Assembly: GCA_013215565.1 (NCBI GenBank)
Contig: JABSQV010000009.1
Span: 16,743 to 80,742 of the forward strand
Direction: 5' to 3'
Source of the DNA: Myxococcales bacterium
GTDB taxonomy: Bacteria > Myxococcota_A > UBA9160 > SZUA-336
Length of the DNA stretch: 64,000 bases
Under the pieces are notes generated by a model. The model saw only the letters and a list, made by a program, of their open reading frames with translations. It was not told the DNA's origin and made no database searches. Within the stretch, counting starts at the first letter, position 1, and each line of letters starts with the position of its first letter. Of the stretch, positions 55,999-59,122 are shown piece after piece. The translations under genes were made by a program, and so were the position numbers.

Positions 55999-57078
55999 AT
56001 GCAACTCGGGGTCTGTGTCGCTTCGCACATCGGAGACGTCGACTACGTGGTACGCGCCGAGGCACTGGGCTACACGCACGCGTGGCTGGCCGACAGCCAG
56101 ATGCTCTGGTCGGACTGTTACGCCACGCTGGCACTCGTGGCGGACCGCACCTCGCGGATCCGGATCGGAACCGGGGTCGCCGTCTCGGGCACGCGACCGG
56201 CGCCGGTCACGGCCGCCGCGATCGCGAGCATCAACGTGCTGGCGCCCGGCCGGACCTTTCTCGGGGTCGGTGCCGGAAATACCGCGATGCGGATCATGGG
56301 CCAGCCGCCACAACGGATCGCGGCGTTCGATCGCTACCTCGAAGCGCTGCGTCCGCTGCTTCGCGGCGAGGAGTCGCTCCTCCACGAGGGCGAGAACACC
56401 ATTCCGATTCGGCACGTCATGCCCGACCGGGGGTTCGTGAACTTTCGGGATCCGATCCCGCTCTACGTCTCGGGCTTCGGGCCGCGCTCGCTGGGCCTGG
56501 CCGGAACCCACGGCGACGGCGCGGTACTCGCTCTGCCGCCGCATCCGGCCGTGATGGAACACTGGTGGAGTCAGATCGAGGCCGGCGCGCGCAAGGTCGG
56601 ACGAAGCCTGGATCGAGACGCCTACGCCACCACCGCGCTGAGCACGATCGCGGTTCTGGATCCCGGGGAGTCCTCGGATTCTCCACGCGTACGCCACGAG
56701 TGCGGGGCCTTCGCGATGGCGACCGTCCACTACGCCTATGACCAGTGGCGCCAGTTCGGCCAGGATCCGCCCGGATTCCTGGCCGATCTCTGGGACGACT
56801 ACTGCGCGATGCTCGCAGCGATTCCGGCCAGACGCCTGCACCAGCGCATCCACGCCGGCCACAACTGCTGGGTGGTCCCCGAAGAGGAACGCTTCCTCAC
56901 GCACGAGTTGCTCCAGGCGACCTGCATGATCGGAACGCCCGAACAGTTGATTGAGCGCCTGTGGGCCCTCGAGGAGGCGGGACTCGATCAAGTGATGATC
57001 CTGCCAGCTTTCGAGCCGCGCTACGAGGTGCTCGAGCGCGTCGCACGCGAGGTGCTGCCGAAGCTTCGCACTTCCTGA
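55999..57078 (+). CDS. LLM class oxidoreductase (F420-dependent reductase type)
   Basis: The 359-residue protein begins MQLGVCVASHIGDVDYVVRAEALGYTHAWLADSQMLWSDCYATLALVADRT, the barrel start of the LLM superfamily. It has IRIGTGVAVSGTRPAPVTAAAIASINVLAPGRTFLGVGAGNTA and LYVSGFGPRSLGLAG. It is most like the 5,10-methylenetetrahydromethanopterin reductase (Mer)-type F420 enzymes, but such proteins do many things in bacteria. The start is ATG 55999 with GGGAGGGATCC upstream; an in-frame reading from 55918 extends into the gap. It is the gene upstream of the bufferin operon; a relationship is unknown. Confidence 0.85.
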   Translation: MQLGVCVASHIGDVDYVVRAEALGYTHAWLADSQMLWSDCYATLALVADRTSRIRIGTGVAVSGTRPAPVTAAAIASINVLAPGRTFLGVGAGNTAMRIMGQPPQRIAAFDRYLEALRPLLRGEESLLHEGENTIPIRHVMPDRGFVNFRDPIPLYVSGFGPRSLGLAGTHGDGAVLALPPHPAVMEHWWSQIEAGARKVGRSLDRDAYATTALSTIAVLDPGESSDSPRVRHECGAFAMATVHYAYDQWRQFGQDPPGFLADLWDDYCAMLAAIPARRLHQRIHAGHNCWVVPEEERFLTHELLQATCMIGTPEQLIERLWALEEAGLDQVMILPAFEPRYEVLERVAREVLPKLRTS

Positions 57079-57099: not shown

Positions 57100-57128
57100 T
57101 TGCCACCCAAGGGCATTCTTCCTAAGCT
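57100..57128 (+). promoter_or_regulatory. bufA: Candidate promoter of the bufABC operon
   Basis: TTGCCA (57100-57105), a 17-base spacer and TAAGCT (57123-57128) give the best sigma-70-like promoter in the window. Transcription would start near 57135, inside GAATATTC (57134-57141), a perfect eight-base palindrome that could be an operator. No ECF sigma (GTAAC/CGAA type) or obvious CopY/CueR-like site is recognised. Confidence 0.45.
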
Positions 57129-57180
57129 ACCGGGAATATTCGGGCGCGGCCGCGAGTCGCGTCCCGACGACGGAGGTAGC

Positions 57181-57471
57181 ATGCGCAGGAGCGATCTGGT
57201 CAGAAGGGCGTTGATGGGCTTGCTCGTCGCGGGTGTGAGCGGCTCGGCGGGCACGGGATGGGCGGCGCCACACTGGGCCGAACCCGGAGACGAACTCGAA
57301 AAGTGTGCGGGCCTCGTCAAGACGGGCGAGAACGATTGCGGTGCAAAGGGGCACATCTGCAGCGGCAGGGCGGCCAAGGACAACGATCCCGAAGAGTGGG
57401 TCTTCATGCCGAAGGGCATCTGCGAAAAGCTCGCCAGCGGGAAGGTCGTGGGCACCATGACAGTGAAGTGA
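57181..57471 (+). CDS. bufA: Bufferin-type RiPP precursor (DUF2282)
   Basis: The 96-residue precursor has a Sec signal peptide (MRRSDLVRRALMGLLVAGVS, cleaved near GWA-AP at residue 28) and a core with four Cys: C42 (LEKCAGLVKTGENDC), C53, C60 (GAKGHICSGRAAKD) and C81 (WVFMPKGICEKLASGKV). This is the DUF2282 pattern of bufferin precursors, in which Cys are converted to thiooxazoles or disulfides by the partner enzyme and the product binds copper in the periplasm. The ATG at 57181 has GGAGGTAGC upstream. Its TGA overlaps the bufB GTG (GTGA), coupling the two. The family name is inferred from pattern; no modification has been seen. Confidence 0.8.
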   Translation: MRRSDLVRRALMGLLVAGVSGSAGTGWAAPHWAEPGDELEKCAGLVKTGENDCGAKGHICSGRAAKDNDPEEWVFMPKGICEKLASGKVVGTMTVK

Positions 57472-58313
57472 GCCCGGCAGGCCGGACACGCGTTTCCGGT
57501 GCCGGACTCGGCCTCCGAGACGAACACCTCGGCGAACTTCTCAAAGCACCCGGGACCGAGGTCGGGTGGCTCGAGGTGGTCACCGAGAACCTGTTTTCGG
57601 CACCGCCGAGGTTCATCGACGGGCTGAGCGAGCTGGCCGAACGCTACCCCCTGGTGCTTCACGGGGTCGGGCTCAATCTCGGATCCAGCGATCCCCTGGA
57701 CCTGCGATACCTCGACCGGGCCGCCGCATGGGCCGAGCGTCTCGGTGCACACTGGCTGAGTGACCACCTGTGCTGGTCGGCGGTCGGGGGCCGCCATTCT
57801 CACGATCTGATTCCGCTCCCGGCCTGCCGCGAGGTGATCGATCACTGCATCCGCCGAATCGAGCAGGTCCAGAAGCACTGGGGACGAACGCTGGTGATCG
57901 AGAACGTATCGGCCTACCTCAGACCTCGAGGCGGCGACCTTCCGGAGTGGGAGTTCCTGAGCGAGATCGTCGAAGGCTCGGGCTGCGAGATCCTGCTCGA
58001 CCTCAACAACCTCTGGGTGAATGCAAAGAACTTCGGCTTCGACCCGCTCGTGTACCTGGAAGCGCTTCCGCTCGACCGCGTGCGGCAGGTACACCTCGCG
58101 GGTCACGAAGTCTGGGATGGGATCCGGGTCGACACGCACAGCCGGCCGGTCTGCGCCGAAGTCTGGGACCTGTATCGGGACTTCGTTGCACTCGCCGACC
58201 CGGTCCCGACCTCGATCGAGTGGGATCGGGAAATTCCGGCACTCGAGGTACTGCTCCAAGAGGCTCGGGCGATCGACGCGATCCTGCAAGGCGCAAGCGA
58301 TGCAGTTGGCTGA
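57468..58313 (+). CDS. bufB: MNIO-family (DUF692) RiPP-modifying enzyme
   Basis: The 281-residue protein is of the multinuclear non-haem iron-dependent oxidative enzyme family, as in MbnB. Motifs in order: WLEVVTENLFS, LVLHGVGLNLGSSDPLD, LSDHLCWSA, LVIENVSAYLRP, LLDLNNLWVNAKNFGFDP, RQVHLAGHEVWDG, DTHSRPVCAEVW and TSIEWDREIPALEVLLQEA. The His, Glu, Asp and Asn in these motifs are the expected iron ligands. It probably oxidises BufA Cys residues before export. Translation begins at GTG 57468 inside a GTGA overlap with bufA. It needs the DUF2063 partner encoded next. Confidence 0.88.
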   Translation: MSPAGRTRVSGAGLGLRDEHLGELLKAPGTEVGWLEVVTENLFSAPPRFIDGLSELAERYPLVLHGVGLNLGSSDPLDLRYLDRAAAWAERLGAHWLSDHLCWSAVGGRHSHDLIPLPACREVIDHCIRRIEQVQKHWGRTLVIENVSAYLRPRGGDLPEWEFLSEIVEGSGCEILLDLNNLWVNAKNFGFDPLVYLEALPLDRVRQVHLAGHEVWDGIRVDTHSRPVCAEVWDLYRDFVALADPVPTSIEWDREIPALEVLLQEARAIDAILQGASDAVG

Positions 58314-59079
58314 ATTTCAGAAGAGATTTCTGGCCGGGCTCTACGCCCCGAAGCTCGCGTGGGAATCGCTCGAGCCGCTGATCGATTCCGGCGGGCGCGC
58401 GGGCCTCGAAATCTACCGGCGCAACCTGATCTTCGCCCTGGTCGGCGCACTCGAAGAGACCTACCGCGCCACGGCCGGGGTGCTAGGACGAGAGAACTTC
58501 CGCTTCCTGGGAAAACGCTACCTGCACGCACACCCCTCGACGGATGTGGACCTGACTCGGTTCGGCGCTCGCTTTCCGGATTTTCTCGCGACGTGTGCGG
58601 AAGTCGACGCGCACCCCTGGCTTCGCGACCTCGCACGACTCGAGCAGGCCTGGAGCCGGACCGCTCGCAGCGAACCCGGGGACGCGATCTCGCGGAAGCG
58701 GATCGAGCCGCTGCTTACCACGGACCCGAGCGCCTGCGTGGCCCGGCTCGAGAGGTCGGTCCGCGTCCTGCGCCTCGAATTCGACGTGCTCGCGTGCTGG
58801 CGGGAATTCGGCGAGTCCGGCCAGGTCTCGAACGCGCCGACCCGGCGCACGAACTGGATCCTCACCTGCCTGAAAGGGCGCGCGCCGCGGGCCTCCGAGT
58901 TGGAGCCGGTGCTGGGCCAGGTCCTGGTCGGCCTCGCCGCGGGAAACACGCTCGGCCAGCTCGCGAACCAGCCGCCGGTCCGGGACAATCCGGCCGTGCT
59001 GCGCGACGCGCTCGGCAGCGCGATCGACGCGGGCTGGATCGCCGGCCTCGGGCCACCCGCGAACCCCGACTCCGCCTGA
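58300..59079 (+). CDS. bufC: DUF2063 partner protein
   Basis: The 259-residue protein begins MQLAEFQKRFLAGLYAP. It continues with GLEIYRRNLIFALVGALEETYRATAGVLGRENFRFLGKRYLHAHP and FGARFPDFLATC, the DUF2063 pattern (HvfC/BufC) found beside DUF692 enzymes. Its N-terminal domain is thought to present the precursor to the MNIO enzyme. The C-terminal half is less conserved. The ATG at 58300 overlaps the end of bufB by 14 bases, so the three genes form a tight translationally coupled operon. No DoxX-like bufD follows; the next gene is convergent. Confidence 0.85.
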   Translation: MQLAEFQKRFLAGLYAPKLAWESLEPLIDSGGRAGLEIYRRNLIFALVGALEETYRATAGVLGRENFRFLGKRYLHAHPSTDVDLTRFGARFPDFLATCAEVDAHPWLRDLARLEQAWSRTARSEPGDAISRKRIEPLLTTDPSACVARLERSVRVLRLEFDVLACWREFGESGQVSNAPTRRTNWILTCLKGRAPRASELEPVLGQVLVGLAAGNTLGQLANQPPVRDNPAVLRDALGSAIDAGWIAGLGPPANPDSA

Positions 59080-59122
59080 GCGCGTCCGCCCCGCCGGACG
59101 CGCGGACGCCTCCGGACCTGAT

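Follow-up and report, generated by a model that had tools for sequence, protein, structure and literature searches.

The window analysed in this study, a stretch of DNA 64,000 nucleotides in length, contains three genes, bufA, bufB and bufC, that lie in this order on the + strand and form a tight operon at positions 57181-59079. The first gene, bufA (57181..57471, ATG start at 57181), encodes a Buf1 (DUF2282) precursor of 96 aa and follows a Shine-Dalgarno-like GGAGG (57172..57176, +) identified by direct reading of the sequence. It is followed by bufB (57468..58313, GTG start at 57468), encoding a 281-aa MNIO (DUF692) bufferin maturase, and by bufC (58300..59079, ATG start at 58300), encoding a DUF2063 partner (PME type 1) of 259 aa. 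The stop codon of bufA and the start codon of bufB share a GTGA at 57468-57471, and the end of bufB overlaps the start of bufC by 14 bases (58300-58313); the places, same-strand order and overlaps of the three genes are as an earlier note on this DNA had described them. In Pfam, bufA matched the DUF2282 profile on which that note had made its reading depend (PF10048; 1.6e-18, 66.8 bits vs. a cut-off of 22.4), bufB matched MbnB_TglH_ChrH/MNIO (PF05114; 1.2e-93, 313.6 bits, cut-off 25) and bufC matched DUF2063 (PF09836; 4e-16, 59.5 bits, cut-off 27.2). DUF2282 and MNIO are each represented by a single gene in the whole genome, both of them at this locus. Upstream of bufA, a luciferase-like gene (55999-57078) is separated from it by 102 bases; co-transcription of this gene with bufABC was considered and rejected, given the gap and given that the gene does not lie directly beside bufA in relatives. 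Between bufC and a convergent carotenoid-oxygenase-like gene there is a G+C-rich hairpin of 9 bp (59080..59103, no strand assigned) that is a possible terminator lacking a T run, folding of 59 nt giving -26.5 kcal/mol at a z of -2.0. No canonical terminator was found after bufC, and no gene for mercury or another metal was seen next to the operon.

The top NCBIfam match of BufB was NF050167 MNIO_BufB, at 305.6 bits just under the cut-off of 310, and its profile matched the 3BWW and MbnB structures. The protein keeps H65, H100, E145, N146, D178, N180, N181, H209, D222, H224, E251 and D253, which are invariant in the 14 BufB proteins aligned. From knowledge of the family and the match to solved MNIO structures, we infer that the invariant His, Asp, Glu and Asn residues serve as iron-site ligands. 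In the BufB tree, the protein occupies a long branch outside the well-supported groups.

BufC is divergent as well, with 20-29% identity to its relatives and a score of 21.9 against the NCBIfam HvfC equivalog, below the cut-off of 142. Sequence and profile searches found no relative of BufC in the PDB, and matches came from a fold search alone. Using an AlphaFold2 model with a mean pLDDT of 87, this search retrieved the TglHI holoenzyme, matched at its chain A with an E-value of 4.5e-7, and, at 3.8e-4, 3DEE, a partner protein of BufC's type (PMC12668002). As modelled, BufC is folded like these known MNIO partners. A weak RRE match to TbiB1 (E 0.55) is no proof alone, yet it agrees with the published partner architecture of DUF2063 plus RRE (PMC12452194), and BufC probably carries an RRE-like C-terminal domain.

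The N-terminus of BufA comprises an RR-rich n-region, a hydrophobic stretch at residues 9-20 and a possible GWA/A site, as judged by hydropathy and reading, and a putative signal peptide would span about residues 1-28. The twin arginines (VRRALM) in the n-region of bufA (57181-57264) are faintly Tat-motif-like, as are NRKAFQL-like stretches in the BufA of relatives with the gene order bufB-bufC-bufA (bufBCA); a Tat-like RRALM signal is a conceivable alternative to Sec. The cysteines of BufA lie at positions 42, 53, 60 and 81, as previously noted, with a spacing of 11-7-21. It had been proposed that this spacing, together with the ICSGR and VFMPKGIC contexts, may define a variant core. Alignment refuted this proposal, since the spacing is found exactly in 10 of 12 relatives of the same class, the other two having 11-9-21, and the cysteine contexts are family-wide. 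Across 21 aligned precursors, drawn from the source's phylum, Proteobacteria plasmids and one alphaproteobacterial bin, eleven positions do not vary (K41, C42, G44, N51, D52, C53, C60, P77, G79, C81 and K83) and two more, E40 and H58, hardly do, which gives a family motif of K-C, G, N-D-C, C and P-x-G-x-C-x-K. Given these positions, ICSGR and VFMPKGIC are simply how this precursor spells a motif common to the family. Buf1 precursors have four conserved cysteines, of which the central two are modified and the outer two are disulfide-bonded (PMC12452194), and judging by its sequence, BufA would fit this published scheme unchanged.

Buf1 bufferin-type biosynthesis at this locus, which the earlier note had called a bufferin-type operon, is well supported by the DUF2282, MNIO and DUF2063 matches, the MNIO residues kept in BufB and the partner fold of BufC. 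Our favored reading, with a probability of roughly 0.88, is that the locus is a standard Buf1 bufferin operon that makes an exported copper-binding peptide by the chemistry already described. What was observed here are the three genes, their motifs and the fold of the partner, while chemistry, export and copper role are carried over from characterised Buf1 members, for which the roles of the central and outer cysteines and a function in copper binding have been reported (PMC12452194). By this analogy, BufC would present the BufA precursor to BufB, which would oxidise C53 and C60 to thiooxazoles in the cytoplasm before export. The modified BufA would be exported by Sec and its signal peptide then removed, a disulfide between C42 and C81 would form after export, and the product would bind or buffer excess copper in the periplasm. 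Counted against the standard reading are the score of BufB under its curated cut-off, its long branch, the divergence of BufC and the lack of a visible metal neighbour.

Several known systems resemble this operon. Buf1 bufferins such as Caulobacter vibrioides bufferin 1 have the same four-cysteine precursor with a signal peptide, an MNIO and a DUF2063 partner in the order ABC, but often occur as bufABCD with sigma/NrsF genes, whereas the present set lacks DoxX and sigma/anti-sigma genes and is diverged in sequence. A similar arrangement is the plasmid-borne bufABC of Rhodanobacter denitrificans (NZ_CP088981.1), likewise three genes in the same order with a bufB/bufC overlap and no DoxX; it differs in sitting in a mercury-resistance locus, and its BufB is about 45% identical. 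The GIG operons of Cupriavidus metallidurans and Legionella pneumophila share the three core families (PMC5413113) but carry a DoxX gene and are gold- and copper-induced. Oxazolin/fontiphorin (EGKCG) captophorins and methanobactins likewise use an MNIO and a partner to convert cysteines into copper-binding heterocycles, but from other precursor families, and methanobactins differ further in using MbnC, lacking a Sec signal and forming oxazolone thioamides. These comparisons also bear on the metal. The same Buf1 operon could make a peptide whose main target is a different soft metal (mercury, gold) or a stress other than copper, as suggested by plasmids of Rhodanobacter and Paraburkholderia on which Buf1 operons sit within or next to mercury-resistance loci (L039, L041) and by the response of the Legionella GIG set to gold as well as copper (PMC5413113). 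We regard this as rather unlikely, since no such gene accompanies bufABC here and copper is the metal bound by characterised Buf1 (PMC12452194).

The published core of bufferin operons consists of precursor, MNIO, DUF2063 and DoxX genes, with several organisations reported (PMC12452194). Next to bufABC there is no gene for DoxX (bufD), NrsF or an ECF sigma, and the earlier statement that bufD and a sigma factor are missing from the operon held on a whole-genome test: the two DoxX genes of the genome are both on other contigs, NrsF had no match in the genome, whose completeness is 91%, and the closest Sigma70_r4_2 gene is about 67 kb from bufABC on the same contig. Control by this distant ECF sigma was rejected, given its distance and the failure to find NrsF. 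The Legionella GIG set, which is of bufABCD type, is copper- or metal-induced, with an influence of RpoS (PMC5413113). The 12 class relatives having bufA show neither DoxX nor NrsF near it, and the bufABC of Rhodanobacter is also without DoxX, whereas DoxX is present in the sets of Paraburkholderia, E. coli and Thiothrix. Because bufD and sigma/anti-sigma genes are usually missing in the class, and also in Rhodanobacter, the "different regulatory regime" formerly deduced for this operon is plausible but ordinary, besides being an argument from absence, and their lack here hence does not define a new variant.

The earlier note had also credited the operon with its own promoter. The sequence TTGCCA-17-TAAGCT is indeed present (57100..57128, +) as a possible sigma-70 promoter, but it is weak, with 8 of 12 consensus matches and a -10 box of 3/6, and it fails our rule for calling a promoter, which demands at least 9 of 12. 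By chance, an equally good site is expected in about 3% of same-length window stretches and in 5% of gap shuffles, and no counterpart was found at the same place upstream of relatives; a strong promoter for bufABC was rejected on these grounds. That the operon makes a bufferin variant, under a promoter of its own and with a distinct core chemistry, is therefore highly improbable: although BufB is divergent and the ICSGR and VFMPKGIC spellings are local, the cysteine spacing and the motif around it are standard for the family, the promoter is both weak and unconserved, and in the class it is common for bufABC to have neither bufD nor sigma. The weak promoter, together with the sole MNIO and sole DUF2282 copies in the genome, might instead mark a decayed or silent operon retained by chance. 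This too is very doubtful, considering that none of the three frames is broken, that their starts and stops overlap and that residues invariant across relatives are retained.

Given that the search for NrsF gave no match and that ECF sigma genes are absent from the vicinity, control of this standard Buf1 operon by housekeeping transcription or an unlinked regulator is most likely. A GAATATTC dyad (window 57134-57141) that closely follows the possible -10 box on its downstream side is a candidate operator; the relatives did not show the complete site. We tentatively entertain, at less than even odds, that this minimal bufABC is governed in a manner unlike ECF sigma/NrsF, being either constitutive or subject to a repressor at the dyad. 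If true, such regulation would represent a separate control route for Buf1 peptides.

Other arrangements were encountered among the relatives. Although the order bufABC was reported to be strictly conserved (PMC12452194), seven class relatives (G018, G027, G031, G056, G359, G055 and G051) run contrary to it, with the order bufBCA (L023 6316-10702, L024 5467-9938, L025 6420-10782, L022 9892-12600, and also L017, L021 and L033). No other clear Cys-rich exported precursor was found before bufB in the six such loci checked, and the BufBs of these relatives, six of which are in the tree, form one supported group (97/98). In genus g17, a TonB-dependent receptor gene follows bufA on the same strand in the four loci read, and the receptor might take up metal-loaded peptide. 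Two genomes, G028 and G011 (99% and 94% complete), contain bufA by itself, without any match to MNIO. These genes (L015 7143-8112, L016 7927-8211) have a Cys spacing of 11-9-21 and both adjoin a pair resembling gluconate 2-dehydrogenase subunit 3 and GMC oxidoreductase; in G028, bufA overlaps a HupE/UreJ gene. A BufB-BufC fusion, with MNIO and DUF2063 in one reading frame, is convergent with a bufA gene at L031 1739-3151 (G162:C232). A second MNIO locus in a same-family genome (G006:C114:2285-5329) has DoxX and a weak NrsF match nearby; therefore, the DoxX type coexists with minimal bufABC in the family.

The locus is a further bufferin set, divergent and of three genes, from a lineage that is uncultured, and as such provides useful context rather than surprise. 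Its neighbourhood suggests that this lineage can dispense with DoxX and ECF sigma genes next to bufABC. The related loci matter more, in particular the clade whose gene order departs from the fixed bufABC reported and the TonB receptor gene in one genus; the bufBCA and lone-bufA loci go beyond the present finding and merit a study of their own.
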